This document shows positions 41,311 to 60,862 of a DNA stretch of 62,086 nt, in pieces. Positions within the stretch are counted from its first letter, which is position 1; the number at the start of each line of letters is the position of its first letter. The position numbers were made by a program, and so were the translations under genes. A model generated the notes under the pieces. The model did not search any database. It was not told where the DNA came from and saw only the letters and a list, made by a program, of their open reading frames with translations. Source of the DNA: Acidobacteriota bacterium (GTDB lineage: Bacteria > Acidobacteriota > Polarisedimenticolia > Gp22-AA2); contig JAGYID010000002.1 of assembly GCA_018606725.1 (NCBI GenBank), positions 1 through 62,086 on the forward strand. The letters run 5' to 3'.

Positions 41311-41389
41311 CAGGGAACTTCGGGCTCTGAGCACGCTTAATCCGCATGAAACGCCAGTGGGAGGGGTGCCCGCCGGCAGAGGGGGATCC

Positions 41390-44300
41390 ATGCGCCGGAC
41401 ATCCCGATCGCGACACCCGTCCAACCGGGTGGCGATTGCCCTGGCTCTCTTCGTTGCGTGCACTCCTCTGATCGGCGGGACACAGCCCGCGCCGGCTTCC
41501 GGGTCCGGTCTTCAAGTCAGGCCGGTTCGCGGGGCGCACGTTCCCGGCGAGCTCATCATCAAGTTCATCGGCAGCGCGTCCGACGCCGACAAGCAGAACC
41601 TCCGCGCCCAGGCGCATGCGCAGCGGTTGCGCCGCTTCAGGAGCGACGCCGAGCACTGGAAGCTGGGGCACGGCGTCACCACCGAGCAGGCGATCGCCCG
41701 GTTCCGCGGCCACCCGCGTGTCGAATACGTCGAGCCGAACTACCTGGTGAACCTGGCGCTGACCCCCGACGACCCCTTCTTCGGGAATCTGTGGGGGCTG
41801 AACAACGAAGGTCAGAGCGGCGGGCTCGCCGGGGCGGACATCGATGCCGTGCGCGCCTGGGACATCAGCACGGGCAGCCCCGGCATAGTGGTCGCGGTGA
41901 TCGACACGGGGATTGACGCGGGCCACGTCGAGCTCGCGCCGAACGTCTGGACCAACACCCGGGAGATCGCGGGGAATGGCCGCGATGACGACGGGAACGG
42001 CTACGTCGACGACGTCCACGGGTGGGATTTCGTCAATCACGACAACAATCCGTTCGACGACCACAGCCACGGGACGCATGTCAGCGGAACGATCGCCGCG
42101 GTCGGGAATAACGGCATCGGGGTCGCCGGCGTCACCTGGCACACCTCGATCCTGCCGCTGAAGTTCCTCGACGCATTCGGTTCGGGCACCGACGCCGATG
42201 CCATCGCGGCGATCGATTACGCGGCTGCCAACGGCGCCCGCGTCATCAACGCCTCGTGGGGCAGCCCCGAGTACTCGAACGCACTGCTGGAGTCGATCCA
42301 GCGGGCCGGCAACGACGGAGTGCTGATCGTGGCGGCCGCCGGCAACTATTCCCTGGACATCGATTCGGTGCCGTTCTACCCGGCCGCCTTCAACGCCGAC
42401 AACATCGTCGCGGTCGCCGCGTCGGATGATCGCGATCGGCTCGCCGGGTTCTCAAATTACGGAGCGCAGAGCGTCGACCTGGCCGCTCCCGGGGACGGCA
42501 TCCTGAGCACCGTCCCCGGTGGGGGCTACGCCGTGTTCAGCGGCACCTCGATGGCCGCCCCGCACGTCGCCGGCACCGCCGCACTGACCCTCGCCGTCGC
42601 GCCGGGTCTCGACGTGGCGCAGTTGAAGCAGCGCCTCCTCGACTCCACCGATTCGATCGCCGACTTGCAGGGGAAGGTGCTCACCGGCGGCCGGCTGAAC
42701 GCCTTCCTGGCGATCGCCACGCTCGACCAGACGCCGCCGGGCCCGATCGCCGACCTGGCCGTGACCGGCGCCACGAGCAACTCGGTCCAGCTGCGGTGGA
42801 CGGCGACGGGCGACGATGGCGAAGAGGGGACCGCCGCCGCCTATGACGTCCGCTACTCGACGGCCCCGATCGATGCGACCAACGTCGATGCCGCATCGCT
42901 GGCCGCCGGGGCGCCGCATCCCGCCCCCGCCGGCTCGCCGGAGGCCATGGAGGTCATCGGCCTCGAAGCGGGGACCGAATACCACTTCGTCGTCAGGGCG
43001 ATCGATGACTGGGGGAACCTCGGGGCGATCGACAACGATGTCGCGGCGAGCACGCTGCCGCCGCCGACTTTCCGGTGGGCGCCGGAGCGGTTCGACCTGG
43101 ACCTGGTCGCGGGTCAGTCGGTCACCCGGACGTTGACGATCGAGAATGCCGGCGAGGGCACGCTCGACTGGCAGGTCGCGCTGCCCGCGATCGGGACCGC
43201 TGCGGCGGCTCCGTCCGCCGCTCCCATGGCATTGCCGAAGGGAGCGGCGGATCCGCGTGTGGGGCGGCCGGTCACCAGCGGCTTCGGCGGCCCCGATGCG
43301 TTCGGATATACCTTCGTCGACAGCGATGAGCCGGGAGGTCCCGGCTTCACGTGGGACGACATCGAGCTGACCGGCACGTCGATCGGGTCGCTGCAGAGGG
43401 ATGATCAGATCAGCGAGCCGATCCCCCTCGGCTTTTCATTCCCGTTCTACGGGGCGTCCTACGACGCCGTCCGGGTCACCACCAACGGCTTCCTCAGCTT
43501 CCTGCAGGTCGAACCCATCTACGACAACCAGCCGCTGCCCAGCGATCTCGCCCCGCTCACCCTGATTGCGCCGCTATGGGATGACCTTCACTTTCACGAC
43601 AGCGCGCGCGCCGTCTACCGGAGCGAGCCGGGCCGGTTCACCGTGCAATACACGGGGGTCGAGCGCTACGAGGGTCCAGGTTCCTACACCTTCCAGGTCA
43701 CCCTGCTCGCCTCCGGCGACATCGAGTATCGCTACCTCGAGCTGACCGGCGACGTCACGTCGGCCACGATCGGAATCCAGGACGAGGCGGGCCTCCGGGG
43801 TCTCGAAGTCGCGTTCAACACGCCGTACCTCCATGACCGGCTCGCGGTGCAGATCGGGCAGACTCCCCAGTGGCTGTCGGCGGCCCCGACGTCGGGACGA
43901 CTGGCTGCCGGCGAGCACCAGGATGTCGCGATCGCGATCGACTCCGCCTTCCTGCGAGCCGGCGCCCATCAGGGCGTGGTGGTGGTCACCACCAACGATC
44001 CGCAGGCGTCCCTGGTCGGCATCCCGGTGGCATTGAACGTCGAGGGGGCGCCGGCGATCCGGATCGACCCGCAGGCGCTGGACTTCGGCGCCGTATTCCT
44101 CGGATATCCCCAGAGCCGTCGATTCCAGACGATCAACATCGGCTCCGATCCCCTGATCGTCAGCTCCGTCGCATCGTCCGACCCGCTGGTCACCGTCTCG
44201 CCGGCGTCCTTCACGGTCGCTCCGGGAGTCCGGCAGGAGGTCGAGGTGACCTACGCCCCCGCGAGCCCCGGTCAACTCGAGACGGCTCTGATGATCACCA

Positions 44301-47300
44301 GCAACGCAGCGAACCAGCCGTCCCTCGCGCTCCCCGTCACCGGGACGGCCCTGCCCGCGCCGTCGATCGCCGTGATGCCCGACCGCCTGGATGCGACGAT
44401 CGGCGAGGGAACGCAGAGCGCCGCCACTCTCACCCTCGCCAACCACGGCGGCAGTCCGCTGAACTACACGCTCGAGGTCCTGCCGGCCGCGGATGCCTTC
44501 TGCGCGAATGAGCGGGTCTATGTCACGGAATTCTATGCCGGGGCGGTCTCACGGGTGAGCCTCGGCTCCGGCGAGGTGACGCGAATTTCCACGGCCTTCG
44601 TCAACCCCGAGGGATTGCTCGTCGACCGCGACACGAATACGGCGATCGTGTCGGACCTCGGCACCGGCTCCCTGTACGAACTCGGGCTCGCGACCGGGAC
44701 GGTGCGGACGATCGCCAGCGGCCTTGGGGCGCCGTTCCACGCGGCGTTCTCGCCCGACCGGAGATCGATCTACCTGACCGAGGCCGAGAGCGGCAGCCTG
44801 CTCAGGATCGACCGGGCCGGCGGGGCGATCAGCGTCATCGCCAGCGACCTGGGAGGGGTCTGGGGCATGGTGCTCGACCATGACGGAGCCACGGCCTACA
44901 TTTCGGAAGTTGTCGAGGACCGGATCTTCCGGCTCGACCTCGCCACGGGCGATCTGAGCGTCCTGCCCGCATCCGGCCTGGTCGAACCGGCCGGTCTCGC
45001 CCTCAGCCAGGACGAAACCACTCTTTACGTCACCGGCTTCGACAGCCCCGGGTCTCTGTACAAGGTGGATGTGGCGAGCGGCTCGGTCACGACGGTGGCG
45101 CAGGGGCTCGCTTATCCCGACGGCGTGTTGCTCGACTCATCCGGGGATATCGCCTATGTCGCCGAGAGCGTTGACAACATTGAGGGTGGCGGGATCGTGG
45201 CCATCGATCTGAGGGACGGCTCGAAGCGAGGGATCGCGTCCGGGGCGCTGAATGGCCCCTCGGTGATGGCGATCGATCCGGGTGGTCCCTGCCATGGCGG
45301 TTTCCTGTCGGCGGCACCGACAACTGGATCGATCGAGCCCGACGGGTCCGCTGCCATCCACGTCGGGTTCGACGGGAACGGGGTCGAGCCGGGCTCTTAT
45401 GCGGCCATCCTCCGGGTGTCGAGCAACGACCCCGCGACGCCGGTGGTCGACGTGCCCGCGACGCTGACCGTGTTCGGGGCGCCGCACATCGCAATTGAAC
45501 CATCCTCCCTCGACTTCGGCCTGGTGTATTCCGGGTTCGCGCGCAACCTGGGCCTGACGATTCGCAACGCCGGGTCGGCTCCGCTGACGATCTCCGCCGT
45601 CACCGCGAACGACCCGGCGCTGACGGTCGAGCCCGGCGCCCTGGTGGTGCCGGCACGCGGGAGCGCCGGCGTCACGGTCACCTACGCGCCGCTCTCGCCG
45701 GGAGCGCTGGCGGCCAGCCTGACAATCGAGAGCGACGCAGCCAACGGCCCTCTTCAGACGGTGCCGGTCACCGGCTCGGCGCTGCCGCCGCCGCAGATCC
45801 GGGTCGAGCCGGCGTCGTTCAGCGAGACTCTGCTCACTGGTGGCGTCATCGGACGCACGCTGCGGGTCGGCAATGACGGCGGCAGCGAGCTGAGCGTCAC
45901 TCTGTCCCCCGAGCTGATGACCGAGGCCGGCAGCGCAACTGTCACTGCGCCGGCGGGACGCTACCGGCTGGCGGCGGGCGACGTCACGCTCGATCGCCGG
46001 ATGGTCGGTGGGAAACAGGGCGGGGGAGCGGCGCAGGACGGTGACATGGTCACCAGGTTGTACCCGCCGGACCGATCGGGGCTGGTCGATGCGCCCTCTC
46101 GAAGGTTCAGCGATCACGCCTACCCCGGGTCCGCCCCGGTCATATGGACGCCGGTCGCATCCCTGAGCTCCACGCAGCAGCAGGAATTCGACCTGGTGAA
46201 CGGCGGCTTCGAGATCGGCGATTTCACCGGCTGGCAGGCGTCGTCGAACGGCTACGCCGAGCTGACGCCGTGGACCGTCACCAGCGGCGGCGGCAGCTGG
46301 TTCGGGGACAACCTTCCGTTGGAGGGATCGTTCGAGGCGATCAACGGGTTCGACGGGGAGGGGGGGTTGGAGTACACCCTGCAGCAGGCGTTTACACTGC
46401 CCCCAACCCTCTTCGGTGCGGAGCTGTCCTACAGCGATCACATCCGCTTCGACAGCCTGGGGATCTCGAGCGCCCTGCCGAGGATCTACGAAGCGACCTT
46501 GCGCGATACGAGCGGCCAGGTCCTGGCCCTGATCGCCCGCGAGGAGATTCTGTTGAACGGTCACGGCTATACCGACCTCGGCTGGCAACGGCGCAGCGTC
46601 GACCTCGCGCCCTACGTCGGTCGGACGCTGGTGTTGTACATCCGCGAGTTCATCCCGGAGACGTACACCGGTCCCGCCAGCATCGAGTTCGATGATGCCC
46701 GGATCACCGGCACATCCATTCCGGATTGGCTGAAAGTCAGCCCCGCAGCCGGGTTGATCCCTCCGGGCGAGTCCCGCGATTTCGCAATCACCTTCGATGC
46801 CGATGGGTCGGGCTCGGCGCTCTACCAGGGCGCGGTGCGGATTGAGACCAATGTGCCAGGGCTGGAGGTCGTCAGAGTCCCCGCCGCATTGACGGTGATC
46901 GGCGCGCCGAATCTCAGGCTCGACGCCGGCCGGCTCGATTTCGGCAATGTCTATACGGGCCAGACGCGCGTACTGGATCTGCCGATTCACAACGACGGCC
47001 CCGACCTGCTGGTGATCACTTCGATCGCGGCGGACCGATCCGAGTTCGTGCCGTCCGCCCAATCCCTCGAGGTGGCGCCCCGCTCCGTCGAGACGCTTCG
47101 CGTCAGCTTCGCACCGGTGACCCCGGGCGAGTTGCCGGCGCAGCTCGCGCTCGAAAGCAACGATCCGGATTCGCCGATCGTCACGGTGATGTTGACCGGC
47201 GTCGGCGTCGAGCCGCCGGTGGTGACCGTCGCCCCGGAATCGTTCGACCTCACATTGAACGAGGGGGAGATCGCGACCCGCAGCCTGACGATCGGCAACG

Positions 47301-50300
47301 CCGGGGGCAGCCCGCTCGATTTCGAGCTCGGCGCGAACCTGACGCCTGCCGGCGGGCTCAAGGCCCTGTCGGCCGGCTGCACGCCGAGCGCGGCGTACGT
47401 CACGGAGTGGTACAGCGGCCGCCTGGTGAAAGTGGACCTGGCCACCGGCGGCACCGCGATCGTGGCCGAGAACCTGTTTTATCCGAACAAGGGACTGGCG
47501 CTCAACGCCGATGCGACGACCGCTTATCTGGTGGAATCGTACGGGGGTACTGTCGATGCCGTGAACCTGGCGACCGGAGCGGGCACCATCATCGCGTCCG
47601 GGCTCGGCTTTCCGATCGGCCTCGATCTGAATGCTGCCGGCGATACCCTGTACGTCACCGATGCCGACCCGAATGATCTGATCGCCATCGACCTGCGCAG
47701 CGGCGATCGCCGCACGATCGCCTCCGGCATCGGCGGGGCGACCAACGGCGTCGCGCTCGACCCCCTTGAAGGCACTGCCTACGTCGCGGACTACCTGGGC
47801 AATACCTTGATCAAGGTCGACCTGACCAGCGGGACGTCCAGTGTCGCAGCGAGCGGGCTGCAGGGTCCCGTGTCCGTGACGGTTGATCCCTCCGGCACGA
47901 CGGCGTTGGTTGTCGAGACGGCCGGCGGCAGTATCGCGCAGGTCGATCTCTTCTCCGGCGCCGTCCAGCGCGTCAGCACCGGCTTATGGGGTCCGGTCGG
48001 ACTCGACATCCTGCCGGGCAGCACGACCGCCTTCGTCACCGAGGTGGGCATCAATGCCCTCTCCAGCGTCGACCTCTCCGACGGGACCGTCACCCGACTT
48101 ACGCAGAGCCTGTTCAGTCCCCTCGGCGTGGCCCTCGATGTTCCGTCGTCCTGCCGTGGCGGGTTCTTGAGCCTCGAACCCGATCGCGGGTCGATCGCGG
48201 CGGGCGAGTCGGCCGATGTGACGCTGCGCATCGACAGTAATGACCTGATTGGCGGGAGCTACCGGGCCGACATCAGCGTGGCGAGCAACGACCCGGTGCG
48301 GCCGGTGGTCGAAGTCCCGGTCTCGCTGACCGTCATCGGGAGACCGAATATCGAGGTGAGTCCCGACCGGCTCGACTTCGGATCGCTGTTCGTCGGCCTG
48401 GACCGGACTCTGTCGTTGACGGTCCGCAATCGAGGGAGCGATGTGCTCCACGTGACGTCGATCGCCAGCACCATCGCGGTGTTCGCTCCTTCGGCCTCCG
48501 ACCTGGTTGTGGCTCCGAGGACCGTGGGAACTCTCGCGGTCACTTTCACCCCCTCGAGCGCCACGGCATTCGACGGACAGCTCCTCCTGAACAGCGACGA
48601 CCCGGACACCCCGCTGGTGACGGTGGGTCTGTCGGGGACGGGTCTGCCGCCGCCGGACATCGAGGTGGCGCCGCCCTCCCTGACGCAGGACCTGTTCACC
48701 GGTGGGACGGCGATACAGGCCCTGACGCTCCGCAACACCGGCGACAGCGACCTGACGTTCGCCGTCACCTTGGTGAACCGATCCGCCCTCACCGGGCCGA
48801 TGGTCATGCAGGGGGAGGGTCTGGAGCAGCCACGCCCTGCCGCCGGGATCGGTCCGCAGCGCTGGGGTGACCCTGACCGAAGCCCAAGTCCGTCCATCGG
48901 TGCCATCAGTGTGCGACCGTCCGCACCGTTGCTCGCGACCAGCCTGCCACTGGTGATCTCCGACCCCGCGGGGGACGGCGGCCAGGTGGACGTCATCGAG
49001 GTGCGGGCCCAGAGCAGCCTGACGGCGCTGGACATCGAGATTGATTCAAGCACGTCGATCAATCCCTTCGACTTCGGTGGGTACCTGTCGCTCGATGTGG
49101 ACCAGAATCCCCTCACGGGTTTCGCCCCGAGCTTCGGCAGTCCGGGTCAGGACATCGGCGCAGAGTACGAATTCACCTTCTTCGAACTCGGATATGGGGT
49201 CGTTTCACTGATCAGGCTGTCGGACTATGCCTTGATTGCGCAGTATCCGGTAGACATCCAGGCGCACTCGCTTCGCTTCAGTGCGCCGCTCGCCGGCCTT
49301 GGCAACGACGACGGCAACATCGATCTCACCGGGGTCGTAGGCACCAGCTACGGTCCAACGGACTGGTTCCCCGACGCCGGGCACGGCACGATCGCCACCC
49401 TCACATGGGTCACCGTCGCGCCTGCCTCGGGGGCGGTCCCGCCGGGGTCCTCGCTCCCTCTGCAGATATCGTTCAACGCCCTGGGCCTGATCGGTGGCGA
49501 CTACGACGCGGACATCGTCGTCCAGAGCAACGACCCCGACGAGAGCCGGGTGGTGGTGCCGGTCCGCCTGCACGTCACCGGAGCCCCGGATATCGACCTG
49601 TCCGCAACGTCGTTCGACTTCGGTCCGCTGTTCATCGGCGCCTGCGCCACGCGAACGCTCACTGTCTCGAATGCCGGCACGGACGTCCTGAATGTCTCCG
49701 AGCTGAGCACCAACGATCCCGAGTTCACGGTCGACGCGAGCAGCTTCAGCCTGGCCGCGGGCGCGCACCGGGACGTGACCGTGAGCTTCTGCCCGGCGAG
49801 CGCGGCCGTCCTCGAGGCAACGCTCACCGTGCACAGCGACGACCCGGACACCCCGCTGGTGACGGTTGGGCTGTCGGGGACGGGGCTGGTGGCGCCCGAC
49901 ATCGACGTCGCGCCCTCCTCCATGACGCAGGACCTGTTCACCGGCGGGACGGCCATCCAGACCCTGACGCTCGGCAACGCCGGCGGCAGCGACCTGACGT
50001 TCGACATTTCGCCCGCCGAAAGGACCGCGGCCCGGGTTGCGACCGCCTCCTGCACCCTGACCACGGCCATCGTCACTGAAAACAACTTCGGCAGGATCTC
50101 GACGGTCGATCTGACGACGGGTAACATCGCCTTGATTGCCTCCGAGCTGGGCGGTCCGGTGGGAGTGGCTCTGAATCCGGACGCAACAGTCGCCTATGTG
50201 GCTGAGCTCGACTCCGGGGTCGTCTCTTCAATCAACCTCACGACAGGTACAAGAACCGTCATTGCGTTCGGACTGAGTGCGCCTGTAGGCCTGGATATCA

Positions 50301-53300
50301 ACAAGGCGGGGACGACGGTTTATGTGACGGAGTACAACACAGGGGAGCTCTCTGCCGTAGACCTCGCCACCGGAAGCATCACCACCATCGCTTCCGGCTT
50401 GGGCACTCTGGTGTTCGTGGCTCTGGACGCCACGGGCAGGACCGCCTACCTGAGCGCATCGTATGCGGGCACGCTCTCTGCAGTCGACCTCGCCACCGGC
50501 GTGCGAACCACGATCGCCACAGGTCTTCCATTTCCGGAGAACCTGGCCCTCTCGCCTGACGGCACCACTGCGTACGTTGCGGCGGCCAACAGCGGGGAAC
50601 TTCTGGCCGTGGATCTTGCCAGTGGCGCGACCGAGCCGGTGGCTTCGGGGCTTAATGGCCCTGTTGCCGTGGCGCTCGACACCCGCGCCCACGAGGCCTA
50701 CGTGACCACCCTCTATGAGGGCGCGTTGTGGCGGATCGACCTCGCGACCGGGACCAACAGCCGTATCGTCTCCGGACTGGGCGGCCCCTTCGGGATCGCT
50801 CTCAAGCTTCCGTGGTCGTGTCGACTCGGGTTCCTTCAAGTCGATCCGACGAGCGGCATCGTGTCAGCGGGTCAGGAGACACCCGTCACCGTCACGTTCG
50901 ACGCCGCCGGTCTGATCGGTGGCGACTACGACGCGGACATCGTCGTGGAGAGCAATGACCCCGACGAGAGCCGGGTGACTGTGCCGGTCCACCTGCACGT
51001 CACCGGCGCTCCGAACATCACACTTTCGGCCGCCTCACTCGATTTCGGCAGCCTGTTCATCGGCGCCTGCTCCACCCGGACTCTCACGGTTTCGAACACC
51101 GGCACGGACGTCCTGAATGTCTCCGAGCTGAGCATCGATGCCCCCGAGTTCACGGTCGACGCGGGCAGCTTCAGCCTGGCCGTGGGCGCGCACCAGGACG
51201 TGACCGTGAGCTTCTGCCCTGCCAGCGCAACGCTCCACGAGGCCACACTCACCGTTCTCAGCAACGACCCTGACCAGGGTTCGCTGTCAGTGTCCCTGAG
51301 CGGGACAGGGCTGGTGGCGCCCGACATCGACGTCGCGCCCTCCTCCCTGACGCAGGACCTGTTCACCGGCGGGAAGGCGACGCAGACCCTGACGCTCCGC
51401 AACACCGGCGGCAGCGACCTGACCTTCGAGATTGCTCCGGCCTTCGCAGCGTCCTCGCTCCCGGCCCCCGGGTCAAGTCTCGAAGACATCCTCGCCGTGC
51501 TGAACACCAACTTCGCGGCCGTCACCGCAGCCATTCCGAACCGCTATGACTTTTTCGAGGGTGAGTTCGGCTACTACATCGATGACGGGGGCGGCGACAT
51601 GTACGACGGGGGGAATCTTCTGAACACCAACCTCGGAGGTTCCCTCAACTACTCCAACAACGTCATCGCCGGCAGCAACGTGCTTGGCACCGGCGGGCGG
51701 TACTTCACCCGCAAGTACCCCGGGCTGTTCGTCCTGGTGGCGGACATTCAGGGCCTTGACTCCTTCACGATCACCGGAAACCTGGGGGCGGACGGCGGCG
51801 GCAACCTGGACGGCGCCGTTGTCGAATCCCAAGTGGGCGGGGTCCGCTATCGCGGCTTCGTCAAGAGGGTCTTCAACGCCTTCGACCCGTCGGTGAATCA
51901 CCTCATCATCGTGGACGACTCCCCCGGCGTCACGCACGACTTCCCCCTCGACACGAACGACGACTATCACCGGGTCTCCGGCCTGACCACGACCCGCCGC
52001 CTCTATGACCTGCTCTATGCCGGGACGGACGGGGCGTACATCGACAACGACGCCACTCTGACCATCATGAAGGCGTTCCTCGAGTCGCTCCATCTGCTGC
52101 CACCCTGGGTGACCGTCGCGCCATCGTCCGGCACCGTGCCGGCGGGGGCCAGCCTCGACGTCACCGTCAGGTTCGACGCCGCCGATCTGATCGGTGGCGA
52201 CTACGACGCGGACATCGTCGTCGAAAGCAACGACCCCGACGAGAGCCGGGTGACGGTGCCGGTCCGCCTGCACGTCACCGGCGCCCCGGACATCGCGCTT
52301 TCGGCCGCCTCATTCGATTTCGGCAGCGTGTTCATCGGCGCCTGCTCCACCCGGACGCTGACGGTCTCGAACATCGGCACGGACGTCCTGAATGTCTCCG
52401 AGCTGAGCACCGATGACCCCGAGTTTACTGTTGACGCGAGCGGCTTCACCCTCGCCGTGGGTGCGCACCGTGACGTGACCGTGAGCTTCTGCCCGGCCAG
52501 CGCAGAGGTTCTCAAGGCAACGCTCACCGTGCGCAGCAACGACCCGGATCAGGGTTCGCTGCCCGTGTCCCTGAGCGGGAGGGGGCTGGTGGCGCCGGAC
52601 ATCGAGGTCGCGCCGCCATCCCTGACGCAGGACCTGTTCACCGGCGGGACGGCCACCCAGACCCTGACGCTCGGCAACGCCGGCGGCAGCGACCTGACGT
52701 TCGATATTTCGCTTGCGGCATCATCCGCGCCCCTGATCGCCACCGATCCCTGCACCCCCACCACGGCCATCGTCACTGAAGACTTCGCCGACCAGATCTC
52801 GACGGTCGATCTGGCTACGGGTGGCATCGGCTTGCTCGCCTCCGGGCCGGGCGGGCCGGTCGGGGTGGCTCTGAACCCGGACGCAACGGTCGCCTATGTC
52901 GCCGAGGTCAACTTAAACGTCGTCTCGTCAATCGACCTCACGACAGGGGCAAGGACCGTCATCGCGTCCGGCCTGAGTGGGCCTTTGGGCCTGGACATTA
53001 ACCCGCCGGGGACGACGGTCTATGTGACGCAATTCTATACAGGGGAGCTCTCTGCCATAGACCTCGGCACCGGAAACATCACGCCCATCGCAGGCGGTTT
53101 GGGCTCCCAGGTGTTCGTGGCTCTCGACGCCACCGGTAGGACCGCCTACCTGAGCGATTCGTCTGCGAACACGCTCTCGGCCGTCGACCTCGCCACCGGC
53201 GTGCGAACCACGATCGCGACAGGCCTTCCATTTCCCGAGAACCTCGCCCTCTCGCCTGACGGCACGACTGCCTATGTTGCGGCGTTCAGCAGTGGGCAGC

Positions 53301-56300
53301 TCCTCGCTGTGGATCTTTCCAGTGGGGCGACTGTGCCGATCGCTTCGGGGCTCAACGGCCCTCTTGCCGTGGCCCTCGACACCCGCGCCCGTGAGGCCTA
53401 TGTGACCAATTGGGACGGTGAGTTGTGGCAGGTCGACCTCGCGACCGGGACCAAGAGCCGTATCGCCTCCGGACTCCAAGGTCCCTTCGGGATCGCTCTC
53501 AAGATCCCGTCGTCGTGTCGAATCGCTTTCCTGAAGGTCGATCCGACGAGCGGCATCGTGTCTGCGGGCCAGGAGAGGCCCGTCACCGTCACCTTCGACG
53601 CCGCTGGTCTGATCGGGGGCGACTACGACGCGGACATCGTCGTCCGGAGCAACGACCCCGACGAGAGCCGGGTGACGGTGCCGGTCCGCCTGCACGTCAC
53701 CGGCGCCCCGGATATCGACCTGTCCCCGACGTCGTTCGACTTCGGAACGCAGTTCATCGGCGCGACGGCGACGCAGACGCTGACGGTGCGGAACCGCGGG
53801 ACGGACGTGTTGCAGGCAGACGTCACGGTGGAGGGGGAGGCGTACGGCGCCGACACCGGGACGTTCAGCCTGGCGGTCGGGGCGAGCCAGACGGTGACGG
53901 TGACGTTCCGGCCACAGTCCGCCGGGCTGCTGACCGGCACCCTGACGATCACCAGTAACGATCCGACTTCGCCGACGATCGCCGTACCGCTGACCGGCAC
54001 CGGCGTCGAGGCACCGATCATCTCCGTCCGGCCGACGCAAATGGAAATCGCCATCGCCGAGGGAGAGCGACGAACTACGACTCTGAGCATCGACAACTCG
54101 GGGGCCGGCCAGCTGGAGTACCGACTCGCGATCGAACCGCGCTTTGACGACTGCACCGCGACCGCCGCCATCGTCAGCACGCAATCGGGCACGCTCTCGA
54201 GGCTGGATCTGAGCACGGGCAGCACCGTCTTGATCGCTGCGGGACTTTCCGATCCCAGGGGCGTCAAAGTGAACGACGCGGGGACCACCGCGTATGTCGT
54301 CGAGCGCACTGCTGGCGCGCTGACGCGCATCGACCTCGCGAGCGGCATCGTGAACAGGGTCGTCACCGGCCTCGAGTATCCCAACGATGTCACCCTGAGC
54401 GCGGATGAGCAGTTCGCCTACGTCACCGATCTGGGGGGTGGCGGGCGCGTCGCCCGGATCGCCCTGGCGTCCGACGCGGTGACCACGATCGCAAACGTCA
54501 CGAACGCCCGCGCCCTCGCGCTGACACGGGATGCGACGACGCTCTACGTCGCCGCCGCCGGCGGGATTTACAGGATCATCGTCGGCACCGGCGAGAAATC
54601 CTTGTTCACCGGCGGTGTGAGCGATCCGACCGATCTGGCGCTGACCCCGGACCAGGGCTTCCTCATTGTCTCCCAGGCGTTTTCATCGGCCGTCTGGACT
54701 ATCGACATGCGGACCGCGGCACAATCGCTCCTCAGCCTTCAGGTCGCCTACCCGGGCGTTCTCGATGTCGATGGATCGGCGGCGTACGTGGGGCAGTCGT
54801 TGCAGCCGGGCTACGTTTTCCGCATCGACCTTACGACCCGCGTGGTCGGGCGTTACGCGCCTTCGTTCACCGGCCCGCAGGGGCTGTCCCTGGTCTATCC
54901 GCGCGAGTGCACAGGAGCGTACGTCACCGTGGCGCCCCAGGCCGGTTCGGTGCCGGGGCACGGCAGCGCCGACGTTGCCGTCACGGTTGACGCCGGGGGT
55001 CTCAGCGCCGGCACCTACCGGGCCGCGATCATCGCCACGAGCAACGACCCGGTCACGCCCTGGTTGGAGATCCCGGTAACGGTAACCGTCTCCGCCGATC
55101 GTGATCATGACGGGGTCCTCGACAATGTGGACAATTGCCCGGCGATCCCGAACCCGGATCAGCAGGACGGTGATACGGACGGGCTCGGGGATGCCTGCGA
55201 CAACTGCCCGGCGGCAGCCAATCCGACCCAATCGGATGTCGACAGAGACGGGATTGGCGATGCGTGCGATCCGTGCACCGATAGCGACCTGGACGGATTC
55301 GGAAACCCCGGGTTCCCCTCCACCACCTGCCCGATCGATAACTGCCCCATGATGGCGAATCCGGCTCAGGCGGACGTCGATCACGACGGCGTGGGCGATG
55401 TTTGCGACACCTGCACCGACACCGACGGCGACGGCTTCGGCGACCCGCAGCATCCGGCCAATCAGTGCTTCCCGGACAATTGCCCCCTGGTCGTCAACCC
55501 CACCCAGAGCGATGCCGACCACGACGGCATCGGCGATCCCTGCGATCCCTGCCCGCTTGATCCGCTCAACGATCCGGACCACGACGGCGCGTGCACCGAC
55601 GTCGACAACTGCCGGCCGGTGGCGAACCCGGGGCAGGAGGATGCCGACGGCGACGGCCGGGGCGATGCGTGCGACAACTGCCCGGCGGCGCCCAATCTCG
55701 ATCAGGTCGACGTCGATGGCGACGGCGCCGGCGACGCCTGTGACGTCTGCCCCCGCGCCGCCGACCCGTCGCAGCTCGACACCGACGGCGATGGTCCGGG
55801 TGATGCCTGCGACAACTGTCCGGCGACCGCCAACCCCGGCCAGGCCGACGCCGACGGGGACGGCTCCGGCGACGCCTGCCAGCCGACCGTCTCAATCATA
55901 TCGATCCGCCAGGACGGCGGCAGCGATCTGGAGGTGACCGCCGAGGCGCTCGACCCGCAGGGGGAGAGTCTTTCCGGCGACGTGTCGATCCTGTTGGGGG
56001 CCAGCCCGTTCATGACGCTGCACGACATCGGCTACACGTTCGACTGCTCGCTTGGCTGGCTGCCCGACGGCGTGCCGGGAGAGGGGATCGGGTTCGCCTT
56101 CGGCTCGGTCGACGAAGCGCTGCTGTTCGACCTCGACGCCAATATCGGCTGCAACGATGCCGCGCAGGATTTCGGCATTCTCATCGGCCCTTGCGCCAAC
56201 CCGGAAAGCGAACCCTGGAGCATCATCGGGTTGGCCGCCCTGACTCTGCCTCAGTCGATCTGCGTCCGCCGGCTGACGGAGGACTCGGGGGGAACTGACC

Positions 56301-57595
56301 TGACTCTCATCTCCTACGACCGCGATCAAGTCACGCTCAGGATCGGATCGGACGTCACGGTCCTGAAAGTTCCGTTCGCTAACGGCCTGCCGGCCCGCAC
56401 CGATATCTCGTCGCTTGCCCCGGGGACTCCCTACCGCCTGCGACTGACGGTCACCGACGGCAACACCATGCCGGCGAGCGCGGAGTCGGAATTCCTGTAC
56501 CAGGGCGAAGGCACCATGGTGATCGCGGCCCCGACCGGTGGCAACCGCCCGCCGCAGGCGACTATCGCGGCGCCGGACAGGGTCGAGTGCGGCAGCCCGG
56601 CGGGCGGTGTCGTGCCGCTCGACGGTTCGGGCTCGACCGATCCCGACTCGACCGGATCGGTCAACGACATCGTCGGCTACGACTGGATCGAGGATATCGG
56701 CGCCCCGACGCAGCGGGTCCTCGGCACCGGCGCGACGCTGGCGGTGGTGCTGCCGCTCGGCCCGCACGCCATCACGCTGCGGGTCACCGACAGGCAGGGG
56801 TTGTCAGGGACGGCCCAGACGATCGTGACCGTCGCCGACACGATCCCGCCGTCGCTGTCGTTGTCGGTCGACCCGTCGGTGCTGTGGCCGCCCAATCACC
56901 GGCTGGTGCCGGTGCAGGTGGCGTGGCAGACAAACGACGCCTGCAGCCCGGCGGTGATGGTGACGTTGATTTCGGCCGTCAGCAGCGAGCCGGACGACGC
57001 GCCCGGCGACGGGGACGGCCGGACGACCGGTGACATCGCCGGTGCCGCTCCGGGCACCGCCGCCACGACGATCGAGCTGCGCGCCGAGCGCGCCAGCAGC
57101 GGCGCTGGACGGACCTACACGCTGACCTACCAGGCGACCGACGCGGCGGGGAACGCCGCGCCGGCGATCGCGCTGGTGAGCGTGCCGCACGATCTGGGGG
57201 AGGGGCCGGAGCCGCTGCAACTGCGGCTGGAGCACGCCGGCGCGGACGGCGCGGCGCGGGCGTACTGGAACGCCGTCAACGGGGCGCGGGCCTACGACCT
57301 GGTGCGCGGCGATCTCGCCAGCCTGAAACAGGAGATCGACCGGGTGTCGCTGGGGGCGGTGACGGTGCCGGCGCGCGAGACGGCGGTCACCAGCTGGACC
57401 GGCGGCGGGATGGCGGACAACCCGGCGCTGGGGCGTGCGTTCTTCTACCTCGTACAGTCGCGCGACGCCCAGCTGCGCCCGAGCGGCTTCGGCACCGAGT
57501 CGGTCCCGCTGCCGCGCTTGCCGGCCTCGTGCGAAAGCGGCTGCCCGGGTGACATCGTGACACGAACAACGGCAGGCGATCCGAAACGCAAGTAG
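41390..57595 (+). CDS. Giant secreted S8 protease-fold protein with nine host-guest units (5401 residues)
   Basis: Order, in residues: signal peptide 1-36; S8 inhibitor-like prodomain about 52-125; subtilisin domain with D172 (VIDTGID), H227 (HGTHVSGT) and S387 (GTSMAAPHVAG), all intact; FN3 domain about 449-556; nine repeat units 557-4568; thrombospondin type-3 calcium repeats 4569-4830 (eight or so DxDxDGxGDxCD loops); a trailing beta domain to about 5048; PKD domain about 5050-5150; Ig-like domain (DPSVLWPPNHRLVPV) and a C-terminal FN3-like end. Each unit is an Ig-like host domain interrupted by a guest domain; the first eight are followed by an ASH/choice-of-anchor-D domain. No membrane anchor or known sorting signal at the C-terminus. 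Start at ATG 41390 behind AGAGGGGG. The protein is probably secreted or surface-bound, calcium-stabilised and self-processed. Substrate and partner unknown; adhesion or degradation are the family-level options. Confidence 0.93.
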   Translation: MRRTSRSRHPSNRVAIALALFVACTPLIGGTQPAPASGSGLQVRPVRGAHVPGELIIKFIGSASDADKQNLRAQAHAQRLRRFRSDAEHWKLGHGVTTEQAIARFRGHPRVEYVEPNYLVNLALTPDDPFFGNLWGLNNEGQSGGLAGADIDAVRAWDISTGSPGIVVAVIDTGIDAGHVELAPNVWTNTREIAGNGRDDDGNGYVDDVHGWDFVNHDNNPFDDHSHGTHVSGTIAAVGNNGIGVAGVTWHTSILPLKFLDAFGSGTDADAIAAIDYAAANGARVINASWGSPEYSNALLESIQRAGNDGVLIVAAAGNYSLDIDSVPFYPAAFNADNIVAVAASDDRDRLAGFSNYGAQSVDLAAPGDGILSTVPGGGYAVFSGTSMAAPHVAGTAALTLAVAPGLDVAQLKQRLLDSTDSIADLQGKVLTGGRLNAFLAIATLDQTPPGPIADLAVTGATSNSVQLRWTATGDDGEEGTAAAYDVRYSTAPIDATNVDAASLAAGAPHPAPAGSPEAMEVIGLEAGTEYHFVVRAIDDWGNLGAIDNDVAASTLPPPTFRWAPERFDLDLVAGQSVTRTLTIENAGEGTLDWQVALPAIGTAAAAPSAAPMALPKGAADPRVGRPVTSGFGGPDAFGYTFVDSDEPGGPGFTWDDIELTGTSIGSLQRDDQISEPIPLGFSFPFYGASYDAVRVTTNGFLSFLQVEPIYDNQPLPSDLAPLTLIAPLWDDLHFHDSARAVYRSEPGRFTVQYTGVERYEGPGSYTFQVTLLASGDIEYRYLELTGDVTSATIGIQDEAGLRGLEVAFNTPYLHDRLAVQIGQTPQWLSAAPTSGRLAAGEHQDVAIAIDSAFLRAGAHQGVVVVTTNDPQASLVGIPVALNVEGAPAIRIDPQALDFGAVFLGYPQSRRFQTINIGSDPLIVSSVASSDPLVTVSPASFTVAPGVRQEVEVTYAPASPGQLETALMITSNAANQPSLALPVTGTALPAPSIAVMPDRLDATIGEGTQSAATLTLANHGGSPLNYTLEVLPAADAFCANERVYVTEFYAGAVSRVSLGSGEVTRISTAFVNPEGLLVDRDTNTAIVSDLGTGSLYELGLATGTVRTIASGLGAPFHAAFSPDRRSIYLTEAESGSLLRIDRAGGAISVIASDLGGVWGMVLDHDGATAYISEVVEDRIFRLDLATGDLSVLPASGLVEPAGLALSQDETTLYVTGFDSPGSLYKVDVASGSVTTVAQGLAYPDGVLLDSSGDIAYVAESVDNIEGGGIVAIDLRDGSKRGIASGALNGPSVMAIDPGGPCHGGFLSAAPTTGSIEPDGSAAIHVGFDGNGVEPGSYAAILRVSSNDPATPVVDVPATLTVFGAPHIAIEPSSLDFGLVYSGFARNLGLTIRNAGSAPLTISAVTANDPALTVEPGALVVPARGSAGVTVTYAPLSPGALAASLTIESDAANGPLQTVPVTGSALPPPQIRVEPASFSETLLTGGVIGRTLRVGNDGGSELSVTLSPELMTEAGSATVTAPAGRYRLAAGDVTLDRRMVGGKQGGGAAQDGDMVTRLYPPDRSGLVDAPSRRFSDHAYPGSAPVIWTPVASLSSTQQQEFDLVNGGFEIGDFTGWQASSNGYAELTPWTVTSGGGSWFGDNLPLEGSFEAINGFDGEGGLEYTLQQAFTLPPTLFGAELSYSDHIRFDSLGISSALPRIYEATLRDTSGQVLALIAREEILLNGHGYTDLGWQRRSVDLAPYVGRTLVLYIREFIPETYTGPASIEFDDARITGTSIPDWLKVSPAAGLIPPGESRDFAITFDADGSGSALYQGAVRIETNVPGLEVVRVPAALTVIGAPNLRLDAGRLDFGNVYTGQTRVLDLPIHNDGPDLLVITSIAADRSEFVPSAQSLEVAPRSVETLRVSFAPVTPGELPAQLALESNDPDSPIVTVMLTGVGVEPPVVTVAPESFDLTLNEGEIATRSLTIGNAGGSPLDFELGANLTPAGGLKALSAGCTPSAAYVTEWYSGRLVKVDLATGGTAIVAENLFYPNKGLALNADATTAYLVESYGGTVDAVNLATGAGTIIASGLGFPIGLDLNAAGDTLYVTDADPNDLIAIDLRSGDRRTIASGIGGATNGVALDPLEGTAYVADYLGNTLIKVDLTSGTSSVAASGLQGPVSVTVDPSGTTALVVETAGGSIAQVDLFSGAVQRVSTGLWGPVGLDILPGSTTAFVTEVGINALSSVDLSDGTVTRLTQSLFSPLGVALDVPSSCRGGFLSLEPDRGSIAAGESADVTLRIDSNDLIGGSYRADISVASNDPVRPVVEVPVSLTVIGRPNIEVSPDRLDFGSLFVGLDRTLSLTVRNRGSDVLHVTSIASTIAVFAPSASDLVVAPRTVGTLAVTFTPSSATAFDGQLLLNSDDPDTPLVTVGLSGTGLPPPDIEVAPPSLTQDLFTGGTAIQALTLRNTGDSDLTFAVTLVNRSALTGPMVMQGEGLEQPRPAAGIGPQRWGDPDRSPSPSIGAISVRPSAPLLATSLPLVISDPAGDGGQVDVIEVRAQSSLTALDIEIDSSTSINPFDFGGYLSLDVDQNPLTGFAPSFGSPGQDIGAEYEFTFFELGYGVVSLIRLSDYALIAQYPVDIQAHSLRFSAPLAGLGNDDGNIDLTGVVGTSYGPTDWFPDAGHGTIATLTWVTVAPASGAVPPGSSLPLQISFNALGLIGGDYDADIVVQSNDPDESRVVVPVRLHVTGAPDIDLSATSFDFGPLFIGACATRTLTVSNAGTDVLNVSELSTNDPEFTVDASSFSLAAGAHRDVTVSFCPASAAVLEATLTVHSDDPDTPLVTVGLSGTGLVAPDIDVAPSSMTQDLFTGGTAIQTLTLGNAGGSDLTFDISPAERTAARVATASCTLTTAIVTENNFGRISTVDLTTGNIALIASELGGPVGVALNPDATVAYVAELDSGVVSSINLTTGTRTVIAFGLSAPVGLDINKAGTTVYVTEYNTGELSAVDLATGSITTIASGLGTLVFVALDATGRTAYLSASYAGTLSAVDLATGVRTTIATGLPFPENLALSPDGTTAYVAAANSGELLAVDLASGATEPVASGLNGPVAVALDTRAHEAYVTTLYEGALWRIDLATGTNSRIVSGLGGPFGIALKLPWSCRLGFLQVDPTSGIVSAGQETPVTVTFDAAGLIGGDYDADIVVESNDPDESRVTVPVHLHVTGAPNITLSAASLDFGSLFIGACSTRTLTVSNTGTDVLNVSELSIDAPEFTVDAGSFSLAVGAHQDVTVSFCPASATLHEATLTVLSNDPDQGSLSVSLSGTGLVAPDIDVAPSSLTQDLFTGGKATQTLTLRNTGGSDLTFEIAPAFAASSLPAPGSSLEDILAVLNTNFAAVTAAIPNRYDFFEGEFGYYIDDGGGDMYDGGNLLNTNLGGSLNYSNNVIAGSNVLGTGGRYFTRKYPGLFVLVADIQGLDSFTITGNLGADGGGNLDGAVVESQVGGVRYRGFVKRVFNAFDPSVNHLIIVDDSPGVTHDFPLDTNDDYHRVSGLTTTRRLYDLLYAGTDGAYIDNDATLTIMKAFLESLHLLPPWVTVAPSSGTVPAGASLDVTVRFDAADLIGGDYDADIVVESNDPDESRVTVPVRLHVTGAPDIALSAASFDFGSVFIGACSTRTLTVSNIGTDVLNVSELSTDDPEFTVDASGFTLAVGAHRDVTVSFCPASAEVLKATLTVRSNDPDQGSLPVSLSGRGLVAPDIEVAPPSLTQDLFTGGTATQTLTLGNAGGSDLTFDISLAASSAPLIATDPCTPTTAIVTEDFADQISTVDLATGGIGLLASGPGGPVGVALNPDATVAYVAEVNLNVVSSIDLTTGARTVIASGLSGPLGLDINPPGTTVYVTQFYTGELSAIDLGTGNITPIAGGLGSQVFVALDATGRTAYLSDSSANTLSAVDLATGVRTTIATGLPFPENLALSPDGTTAYVAAFSSGQLLAVDLSSGATVPIASGLNGPLAVALDTRAREAYVTNWDGELWQVDLATGTKSRIASGLQGPFGIALKIPSSCRIAFLKVDPTSGIVSAGQERPVTVTFDAAGLIGGDYDADIVVRSNDPDESRVTVPVRLHVTGAPDIDLSPTSFDFGTQFIGATATQTLTVRNRGTDVLQADVTVEGEAYGADTGTFSLAVGASQTVTVTFRPQSAGLLTGTLTITSNDPTSPTIAVPLTGTGVEAPIISVRPTQMEIAIAEGERRTTTLSIDNSGAGQLEYRLAIEPRFDDCTATAAIVSTQSGTLSRLDLSTGSTVLIAAGLSDPRGVKVNDAGTTAYVVERTAGALTRIDLASGIVNRVVTGLEYPNDVTLSADEQFAYVTDLGGGGRVARIALASDAVTTIANVTNARALALTRDATTLYVAAAGGIYRIIVGTGEKSLFTGGVSDPTDLALTPDQGFLIVSQAFSSAVWTIDMRTAAQSLLSLQVAYPGVLDVDGSAAYVGQSLQPGYVFRIDLTTRVVGRYAPSFTGPQGLSLVYPRECTGAYVTVAPQAGSVPGHGSADVAVTVDAGGLSAGTYRAAIIATSNDPVTPWLEIPVTVTVSADRDHDGVLDNVDNCPAIPNPDQQDGDTDGLGDACDNCPAAANPTQSDVDRDGIGDACDPCTDSDLDGFGNPGFPSTTCPIDNCPMMANPAQADVDHDGVGDVCDTCTDTDGDGFGDPQHPANQCFPDNCPLVVNPTQSDADHDGIGDPCDPCPLDPLNDPDHDGACTDVDNCRPVANPGQEDADGDGRGDACDNCPAAPNLDQVDVDGDGAGDACDVCPRAADPSQLDTDGDGPGDACDNCPATANPGQADADGDGSGDACQPTVSIISIRQDGGSDLEVTAEALDPQGESLSGDVSILLGASPFMTLHDIGYTFDCSLGWLPDGVPGEGIGFAFGSVDEALLFDLDANIGCNDAAQDFGILIGPCANPESEPWSIIGLAALTLPQSICVRRLTEDSGGTDLTLISYDRDQVTLRIGSDVTVLKVPFANGLPARTDISSLAPGTPYRLRLTVTDGNTMPASAESEFLYQGEGTMVIAAPTGGNRPPQATIAAPDRVECGSPAGGVVPLDGSGSTDPDSTGSVNDIVGYDWIEDIGAPTQRVLGTGATLAVVLPLGPHAITLRVTDRQGLSGTAQTIVTVADTIPPSLSLSVDPSVLWPPNHRLVPVQVAWQTNDACSPAVMVTLISAVSSEPDDAPGDGDGRTTGDIAGAAPGTAATTIELRAERASSGAGRTYTLTYQATDAAGNAAPAIALVSVPHDLGEGPEPLQLRLEHAGADGAARAYWNAVNGARAYDLVRGDLASLKQEIDRVSLGAVTVPARETAVTSWTGGGMADNPALGRAFFYLVQSRDAQLRPSGFGTESVPLPRLPASCESGCPGDIVTRTTAGDPKRK
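43058..44353 (+). repeat. Unit 1 of the giant protein (guest: nidogen-like sandwich)
   Basis: Host part starts FRWAPERFDLDL; the guest, about 43187-43866, contains FSFPFYG and a NGFLSF strand as in NIDO-type domains; host resumes at PQWLSAAPTSG; then an anchor-D domain (ALDFGAVFLG). Confidence 0.7.
44354..45784 (+). repeat. Unit 2 of the giant protein (guest: beta-propeller)
   Basis: Host SIAVMPDRLDATIGEG; propeller residues 1038-1301 opened by CANERVYVTEF and closed by CHGGFLSAAP; anchor-D domain with SLDFGLVYSG. Confidence 0.8.
45785..47209 (+). repeat. Unit 3 of the giant protein (guest: jelly-roll, carbohydrate-binding-like)
   Basis: Guest about 45920-46720 contains LVNGGFEIGDFTGWQ and the DLAPYVGRTLVLYIRE strand typical of galactose-binding-like jelly rolls; host resumes PDWLKVSPAAG; anchor-D with RLDFGNVYTG. 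Confidence 0.7.
47210..48646 (+). repeat. Unit 4 of the giant protein (guest: beta-propeller)
   Basis: Propeller residues 1997-2255, opened by CTPSAAYVTEWY and closed by CRGGFLSLEP; anchor-D with RLDFGSLFVG. Confidence 0.8.
48647..49888 (+). repeat. Unit 5 of the giant protein (guest: beta-sandwich)
   Basis: Guest about 48781-49405 contains SDPAGDGGQVDVIEV and YLSLDVDQNPLTG, a domain often seen on bacterial surface proteases; host resumes WVTVAPASGAV; anchor-D with two Cys. Confidence 0.7.
49889..51313 (+). repeat. Unit 6 of the giant protein (guest: beta-propeller)
   Basis: Propeller residues 2888-3144, opened by CTLTTAIVTEN and closed by CRLGFLQVDP. Close DNA similarity to unit 8 over its whole length (1425 versus 1419 nt). 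Confidence 0.85.
51314..52588 (+). repeat. Unit 7 of the giant protein (guest: unrecognised domain)
   Basis: Guest about 51475-52105 (some 210 residues) with FGYYIDDGGGDMYDGGN and LIIVDDSPGVTHDF; no family recognised. Host resumes WVTVAPSSGTV; anchor-D with two Cys. Confidence 0.75.
52589..54007 (+). repeat. Unit 8 of the giant protein (guest: beta-propeller)
   Basis: Propeller residues 3788-4043, opened by CTPTTAIVTED and closed by CRIAFLKVDP; its anchor-D domain has lost both cysteines seen in units 5-7. Confidence 0.85.
54008..55093 (+). repeat. Unit 9 of the giant protein (guest: beta-propeller, no anchor-D)
   Basis: Propeller residues 4255-4507, opened by CTATAAIVST and closed by CTGAYVTVAP; the host ends and thrombospondin-3 repeats follow at once. 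Confidence 0.8.
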
Positions 57596-57625
57596 GACCG
57601 CTACGTGCGGTGTGGGGGGAGTCAG

Positions 57626-60600: not shown

Positions 60601-60862
60601 GATCGGTCGGGGTTCGGCGACTGTGTCCTGGAGGACAGCCGGTGAATGGGACATCGCAGGCTTCAACATCGTGGCCGTCGATCCGGTGCGCGGGCGCATC
60701 CGGCTCAACGACGCTCCAATCCGCTGCGTGGAGTGCACGACCGGCGAATCGGCGGACTATCACTTCTTCCTGCCGAAGCACAAATCGGCGCGCCGGGTCT
60801 ACGTCGAGGTGCTCACGACCGGCGCCGGATCCGAGTTCGCCGGACCCGCCATCCGGCGTTAG
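57626..60862 (+). CDS. Secreted FG-GAP/VCBS repeat protein with thrombospondin-3 module
   Basis: A 1078-residue exported protein. Signal peptide about 1-30; then about fourteen FG-GAP/VCBS repeats (pattern ADFNSDGYDDLAV and GDGTFAP), building one or two integrin-like propellers with calcium loops; thrombospondin type-3 repeats at nt 59878-60252; a trailing domain QPVVTIAGVTEDGGS like the one at the end of the giant protein; a C-terminal Ig/FN3-like end. Start at ATG 57626 behind GGGGGGAG; a GTG at 57605 is less well placed. It lies 30 bp after the giant gene with no promoter between, so they are probably one transcript. Confidence 0.9.
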   Translation: MIRGGSGRARIVLFIVLLLATLSITGAGAQVSNPDRGATPPPSLTRAMFPAQLFPVGWNPESAVVGDFNNDQFVDLAFANMGNYNYPNGFIGGDVAVLLGYGDGTFTTDLHLSGGDSPTWIGAADFNSDGYDDLAVSNTNSADVSILLSKGDGTFAPQARYPGGGGRLAIGDFDGDRRKDIAVIGAAGQASVRFGKANGGFEDAISIAAPASDWPVASDFDGDGKDDLVLASYTRPELTFVPGRLRTSFGPITAIPLPSGVGGLVPGDFDSDGRIDLAVSLTSWYGGGPAIGFLRGRGDGTFDVPSEGPWGTGMIQQASMFAADFDGDGSSDVVSYTLAGPTVMLNDGHGEYSPAPEGVRNNLGGLTSVTADFDRDGREDLAVAGFYVERPSDVLIARGKGDGTFLLENGYPTATGARDILVRDFNGDRRDDVVVAEWGEATNPGSIAFFPAGADGTLGEPTRYPAGETPFGLATADFNSDGQADVAFGSRTSHFASVMLGVRDGSFMPVTTLDVPGSPIALVTSDFNGDDHADLALLVRDEQFYLNHVYILLGDGLGAFSAPSPQYMTTGWSLMVAGDFNVDGCSDLVLADAFGTPVITLLGACDGTFREGPYSADNDSRPTFAIVVGDFNSDQVPDLSMGIAIRLGRGDGSFAKAVALQGQYLSNTRSTVGDFDRDGDDDLAVVDFFYTNVFRGDGAGGFASAALFHTLDSATAVATGDLDGDGRLDLAWVSGARPLVATLLNIGPFAGDVDHDGIDDALDPCVDSDGDGFGDPGFSGTCPTDNCPAVANRSQDDADRDGLGDACDTCARDPQNDDDRDGVCGSVDNCPIDPNLDQFDSDGDGLGDACDNCPLDAGPDQTDSDGDGWGDFCQPVVTIAGVTEDGGSILEVDARAVDPQGDPLSILIEFFDVNNQSGFGLGYDHLPKHLSLSFLVPDTTYRMQIRAQDPKGVQGLAATQFLHQDESVMLISGGTDAPRVYSSDVSISYNRPIGRGSATVSWRTAGEWDIAGFNIVAVDPVRGRIRLNDAPIRCVECTTGESADYHFFLPKHKSARRVYVEVLTTGAGSEFAGPAIRR

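Follow-up and report, generated by a model that had tools for sequence, protein, structure and literature searches.

In a 62,086-nucleotide stretch of Acidobacteriota DNA (contig JAGYID010000002.1, positions 1 to 62,086; hereafter the window), one giant open reading frame (ORF) of 5412 amino acids (aa) was recognized on the forward strand at 41357-57595. The product is interpreted, at a probability of about 0.7, as a secreted subtilase whose tail forms a rod of alternating immunoglobulin-like (Ig) domains of the ASH/HYDIN/BACON_2 type, every second one split by a folded guest domain. The domain order is signal segment, prodomain, Peptidase_S8, FnIII, nine units, and thrombospondin type-3 (TSP3) repeats.

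The nine units comprise aa 571-4578, i.e., nucleotides (nt) 43067-55090. All nine units open with a host N half of 38 aa; a guest of 209-274 residues follows, and then a host C half of about 58 residues. The guest lengths are 227, 272, 270, 274, 209, 270, 220, 269, and 260 aa in units 1 to 9, respectively. An intact domain, anchor-D, of 106-107 aa closes units 1-8, and unit 9 has none. Counted from the first C-half residue, the remainder of the unit is exactly 164 aa long in units 1-7 and 163 aa long in unit 8. Host halves were placed by block conservation (units 1-5, 8, and 9, with DNA identity in units 5 and 8) or AlphaFold2 models (units 6 and 7), and anchor-D 1-5 by the profiles PF22544 and NF012200. 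The features are as follows.

41357-57595, +, giant ORF, 5412 aa (ORF listing, motif scan)
41882-42649, +, subtilase (Peptidase_S8) domain (profile PF00082, triad motifs)
42743-43009, +, FnIII domain (PF00041, E 2e-7)
43067-43180, +, unit 1 host N half
43181-43861, +, unit 1 guest, nidogen-like domain behind a 36-aa linker (profile, BLAST clustering)
43862-44041, +, unit 1 host C half
44042-44362, +, anchor-D 1
44363-44476, +, unit 2 host N half
44477-45292, +, unit 2 guest, YVTN/YWTD-type beta-propeller with one cysteine (Cys) near the start and one at the end (profile)
45293-45472, +, unit 2 host C half
45473-45793, +, anchor-D 2
45794-45907, +, unit 3 host N half
45908-46717, +, unit 3 guest, beta-rich, unnamed family of GFExGxFxGW type (BLAST clustering)
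46718-46897, +, unit 3 host C half
46898-47218, +, anchor-D 3
47219-47332, +, unit 4 host N half
47333-48154, +, unit 4 guest, beta-propeller with terminal Cys pair (BLAST clustering)
48155-48334, +, unit 4 host C half
48335-48655, +, anchor-D 4
48656-48769, +, unit 5 host N half
48770-49396, +, unit 5 guest, probably beta-rich by eye, singleton cluster (BLAST clustering)
49397-49576, +, unit 5 host C half
49577-49897, +, anchor-D 5
49898-50011, +, unit 6 host N half, four strands in the model
50012-50821, +, unit 6 guest, beta-propeller, model confidence (pLDDT) mostly 86-97 (AlphaFold2, fold search)
50822-51001, +, unit 6 host C half, five strands in the model
51002-51322, +, anchor-D 6, uninterrupted, strand order as in the split host (AlphaFold2)
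51323-51436, +, unit 7 host N half
51437-52096, +, unit 7 guest, undescribed domain family (phylum scan)
52097-52276, +, unit 7 host C half
52277-52597, +, anchor-D 7 (AlphaFold2)
52598-52711, +, unit 8 host N half
52712-53518, +, unit 8 guest, beta-propeller (profile, DNA identity)
53519-53698, +, unit 8 host C half
53699-54016, +, anchor-D 8, unlike anchor-D 5-7 (DNA identity)
54017-54130, +, unit 9 host N half
54131-54910, +, unit 9 guest, beta-propeller with terminal Cys pair (profile)
54911-55090, +, unit 9 host C half, no anchor-D after it
55097-55891, +, TSP3 repeats, calcium-binding type (profile, motif scan)

The alternation of host and anchor-D is far above chance, because profile search over the giant ORF gave E 3e-150 in 14 stretches for PF22544 (HYDIN-type Ig) and E 4e-118 in 12 stretches for NF012200 (choice-of-anchor D). 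The intact anchor-D domains of units 1-8 are genuine, i.e., repeated and above the cut-offs of both families. The first-pass annotation had described nine host domains, each interrupted at one site, with an anchor-D closing units 1-8, and both statements agree with this layout of constant halves.

On the profile matches and the models, each host is one interrupted Ig domain that carries its guest at one fixed loop. This follows first from the halves, which cover neighbouring parts of one Pfam domain and, once joined, score as a single match. In unit 7, the N half alone matched positions 15-40 of the 100 positions of PF22544 (18.3 bits), the C half alone matched positions 49-96 (32.1 bits), and the joined halves matched as a single stretch with 55.6 bits. 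The joined hosts of units 4, 7, and 9 were all above the PF22544 cut-off (3/3) in one stretch across the join. Two of the three tested (units 7 and 9) were also above that of BACON_2 (PF19190), again in one stretch, and joined unit 9 covered positions 2-86 of 94 with 27.0 bits. The profile search with the guest removed, which had been proposed as a check, thus supported the host.

Second, the host was completed after the guest in AlphaFold2 models of units 6 and 7, with the strand order of anchor-D. The alignments were shallow, i.e., 5 and 13 rows, and left out the rows of two relatives that were misaligned in the propeller part, as well as all loci obtained by genome search. The predicted template modelling score (pTM) was 0.55-0.65, and the mean predicted local distance difference test (pLDDT) value was 90.5 for unit 6 and 81.0 for unit 7. 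In unit 6, host strands at 4-7, 11-16, 20-29, and 35-42 come before a propeller at 58-305, and strands at 315-318, 321-324, 329-337, 344-354, and 361-371 come after it. Both models have four host strands, the guest, and five host strands, and this nine-strand order equals that of the adjoining anchor-D. The site of the insert (272 residues in unit 6 and 221 in unit 7) is a 4-residue loop in that anchor-D. A split domain in the sense used for adhesins, i.e., an Ig domain begun, interrupted by a folded guest, and completed, is therefore what the models of both units predict. Structure prediction followed by superposition had been suggested beforehand. The prediction bore out the host in unit 7, and also in unit 6; superposition was replaced by comparison of strand order within the models, with the adjoining anchor-D as internal control.

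Third, relatives hold guest-free hosts beside split ones in the same protein. In relative L013, the host at aa 551-648 has 2 residues between its halves, LDFDIADRPWMTAAPPSG, and relative L031 has a guest-free host at aa 662-761. Fourth, the 102 split copies of 37 proteins share the approximate site of the break, with the N half ending near position 40 of the joined-host profile. Because the hosts underlying this profile had been joined at position 40, it favours a break there; the Pfam half-match result is independent of it. The first-pass annotation had set one interrupted sandwich against two separately folded flanking domains, and the joined profile, models, guest-free hosts, and common break all came out for the single domain.

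Split hosts were found in Latescibacterota, Melioribacteraceae, Calditrichaceae, Dawidia soli (Bacteroidota), Delongbacteria, Anaerolineales, and unplaced bacteria. Most of these genomes are metagenome-assembled genomes (MAGs). The genome scan used an alignment of four close C-D-N blocks, all eight being too divergent. Of the 396 genomes of the phylum, 30 had strong block matches (E <= 1e-20), and the best ones were in the source's own class. Other giant relatives have frames of 5712, 4319, 4249, and 3602 aa, and relatives usually share the subtilase-FnIII head as judged by eye. The C termini of L013, L014, and L031 (Latescibacterota and Bacteroidota-type) resemble what we take to be a type IX secretion sorting domain, unlike the giant protein. 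The split-host proteins of L017 (a Calditrichaceae MAG) and L036 (a Deltaproteobacteria MAG) were near-identical, and thus one of these sequences is probably misbinned.

The guests differ from unit to unit. Guests 2, 8, and 9, the three of the five propellers tested, matched SGL and further propeller families in profile search, and guests 4 and 6 joined the propeller guests by BLAST. The model of guest 6 had a template modelling (TM) score, normalised by target, of 0.88 to Pizza6 (6i39) and 0.84 to the nidogen propeller (1npe). Guest 6 is thus predicted to be a beta-propeller close to six-bladed YWTD/Pizza6 structures, and guest 8 shows 82.5% DNA identity to it. Guest 1 scored slightly below the NIDO cut-off (E 4e-5, 24.0 bits, cut-off 25) and clustered with 41 similar guests. 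Nidogen-like guests begin behind a linker of 11-61 residues. Guests 3, 5, and 7 had no match in Pfam or PDB sequence searches. In BLAST clustering, guest 3 had one homologous guest, in L087, and guest 5 was a singleton.

Guest 7 is, by its sequence, an undescribed domain family that was seen only inside split hosts in the phylum sample and the relatives. All nine copies in the 396 genomes of the phylum were flanked by host halves (9/9). Its sites are 51437-52096 in the window, 7682-8353 in L011, and further ones in L085, L088, L100, and L104, all inside split hosts. The consensus is GRYFTRKYPGLFVLVAD...GNLGADG...RGFVKRV, and approximately 45-60% identity is retained across families of one class. 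The fold search with the unit-7 model returned Ig matches only, none for the guest 7 part.

The propeller guests (units 2, 4, 6, 8, and 9) contain exactly two Cys each, the first near the start and the second at the end, and the other four guests of the giant protein have none. The same pattern was found in five of six homologous propeller guests of relatives, and the sixth has one Cys within the boundaries used. This Cys pair suggests a disulfide closing the propeller guest at its exit from the host.

Over the split copies of the giant protein and its relatives, 17 guest groups were obtained by BLAST clustering. The largest are nidogen-like guests (42), YVTN-type propellers (11), kelch-like propellers (8), and the guest 7 family (8). 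The remainder consists of several alpha/beta groups, laminin-G/jelly-roll-like groups, and singletons. One alpha/beta guest of a relative was above the DUF4350 cut-off and had a weak ThuA match. At least two guest classes occur in 15 of 28 multi-unit proteins. Among the guest assignments of the first-pass annotation, the five propellers and the unrecognised domain of unit 7 stood. The nidogen-like assignment of guest 1 is probable by its cluster, with its profile score just short of the cut-off. A jelly roll in unit 3 and a beta-sandwich in unit 5 were not confirmed by profile.

The guests were also described as exchangeable, and both the 17 clusters and the near identity of hosts that surround unrelated guests support this. 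In units 5-8, the DNA of the host N half shows 85-94% identity around unrelated guests, and in the five codons after codon 38 the identity drops to 33-47%. In codons 1-24 of the C half, the identity is 42-62% where the guests of the two units differ, but it reaches 89% for units 6 and 8, whose guests are of one type. Codons 25-57 return to 89-94% in every pair. By this pattern, the guest plus about 24 codons behaves as a block, which either moved into near-identical hosts by exchange or escaped a homogenisation of the constant parts. As a separate observation, anchor-D 8 (53699-54016) has 43-47% DNA identity to anchor-D 5-7, which are 79-88% identical to one another. It is dissimilar although the neighbouring hosts are near-identical, and an internal Cys pair common to anchor-D 5-7 is missing in it.

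A tree of the hosts (104 units, 7 guest classes) requires at least 24 changes of guest class, and shuffling gave a mean of 45.5 and a minimum of 41. A clade of units 5-8 (support 98) holds three guest classes. Hosts with different guests in one protein had a mean identity of 0.440, as compared with 0.386 for hosts with the same guest in different proteins. The 24 changes against 45.5 indicate that exchange is limited and that host and guest partly stay together; judged from these sequences, guest exchange is real, though not free. A wider proposal is tentative and is placed slightly short of even odds: a conserved Ig socket would take up cassettes (guest plus the first ~24 C-half codons) that are swapped between tandem sockets and across phyla, and this socket may be the sole location of some guest families, such as guest 7.

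The head of the giant protein is that of a secreted S8 subtilase by all the expected sequence features. The Peptidase_S8 domain was found by PF00082 (E 1e-58), and the motifs of the Asp/His/Ser triad are DTGID at aa 183, HGTHV at aa 238, and GTSMA at aa 396. The prodomain resembles Fervidolysin_NPro (E 6e-10). A hydrophobic signal segment lies at aa 24-43, and the true start is likely the ATG at aa 12 (nt 41390) ahead of it. Ten TSP3-type motifs were found downstream of unit 9. The longest exact repeat within the gene is 65 base pairs (bp), so repeat misassembly is unlikely.

The rod is proposed to work as follows. After host strand four, the chain would exit through the loop that has 4 residues in anchor-D, fold a whole guest, return, and complete the Ig domain. 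The guests would project sideways from the rod, and most may be binding modules for different extracellular ligands. The rod could then tether the protease to polymers, particles, or cells as a multivalent capture-and-cut device, and the TSP3 tail may aid attachment or stiffening with calcium. New guests may enter by recombination within conserved host DNA. The display-rail function of the array and ligand binding by the guests are putative.

Several points weigh against this interpretation. No cell anchor was identified, with no evident membrane anchor in the C-terminal region, so that the rod may or may not sit on the cell. The projection direction of the guests is not reliable, because the model alignments were shallow and the pTM values low. 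The guest class is non-random on the host tree. Among the guests, the alpha/beta domains similar to ThuA/DUF4350 and the SGL-like propellers might act as enzymes instead of binders.

It is rather unlikely that the guests are exchangeable yet non-binding, i.e., neutral additions, or large spacers that make the protease tail longer or stiffer. The number and type of guests vary freely among relatives, as this explanation expects. However, most guests have recognisable binding or propeller folds and no low-complexity filler, guest 7 keeps about 45-60% identity across families of one class, the terminal Cys pair is kept in the propeller guests, and the spacer role is already filled by anchor-D.

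The possibility that the guests are catalytic, with the rod as a one-chain extracellular multi-enzyme complex of SGL/lactonase-like propellers and ThuA/DUF4350-like domains, would agree with the SGL/arylesterase/lactonase profile matches of the propellers and with the relative's guest above the DUF4350 cut-off. It is unlikely, because the propeller matches are short repeated stretches and the best fold matches are non-catalytic, i.e., YWTD/LRP, nidogen, and designed Pizza6 propellers.

Rapid recombination between repeats would make the array a surface-variation device with no stable multi-ligand rod. The sharp junctions of DNA identity in units 5-8 fit such a device, as does the differing guest order in related proteins of other genomes. 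This is considered quite unlikely, since the longest exact repeat is only 65 bp, in the one strain of the species at hand, and the guest class is partly inherited with the host. A plain string of beads, in which the 38-aa and 58-aa segments, each conserved as a block, form two separate small domains around each guest, is highly improbable, because they fit complementary parts of one Pfam domain, form one nine-stranded sandwich in the models, and directly adjoin in some relatives.

A downstream gene at 57605-60862 (+), encoding 1085 aa, begins 10 nt past the stop of the giant gene. It contains FG-GAP repeats and TSP3, and its tail has 45% identity to aa 4644-4873 of the giant protein. Beyond it, more FG-GAP-like sequence seems to continue in a different frame.

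Split domains are known from the RTX adhesins MpIBP, FrhA, and AhLap, in which a ligand-binding domain sits inside an interrupted Ig-like domain (PMC12077191, PMC10865825). The guest buds out and projects from the axis of the giant extracellular protein, with its ends on one side, and ligand binding has been demonstrated for several such guests (PMC12077191, PMC10865825). In AhLap, a long series of intact extenders comes first and is followed by a few split domains, of which two are Ig-like and the others of RTX and vWFA type (PMC12077191, PMC10865825). The giant subtilase is alike as a giant extracellular protein with Ig-like domains split by guests, known here from sequence and models. It differs in having every second Ig split, nine in a row, in a host of ASH/HYDIN/BACON_2-like type, and in the N-terminal subtilase. 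No GGxGxD motif of RTX nonapeptides was found by motif scan of its 5412 aa, and thus it is not an RTX adhesin.

The anchor-D/HYDIN-CFA65-VesB Ig families (NF012200 and PF22544) include the bona fide anchor-D of units 1-8, whose strand order the split host shares. However, the host loop between strands four and five carries a whole domain, of which the short family descriptions make no mention. Joined hosts match BACON_2 end to end (2-87 of 94), whereas that model is a contiguous domain and the native protein gives half matches only. HYDIN and CFAP47/65/74 of the ciliary central apparatus, the best PDB sequence and fold matches, are likewise giant tandem arrays of ASH-type Ig domains, but they form a eukaryotic intracellular scaffold, and serial guest insertion at one loop was not found among the matches inspected. 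No description of such a BACON/anchor-D insertion was found in the open literature, a coverage outside which most subscription journals lie. What is new compared with the RTX split domains is the host family, the strict alternation, the more numerous and more varied guests, and the secreted-protease head. The regular insertion had been called unusual beforehand; this holds for the nine-unit serial alternation and not for the display principle itself, which is already published for RTX adhesins.

These results suggest that the split-domain principle has a second, more regular use, found serially in another Ig family, on a secreted protease, and across several phyla. Split-domain display in RTX adhesins has been described as a way to spot ligand-binding domains. 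Here, a simple sequence rule, by which the stretch between host halves is read as a guest, exposes unannotated domain families such as guest 7. In addition, the host may represent a natural scaffold able to accommodate inserts of roughly 160-300 residues.

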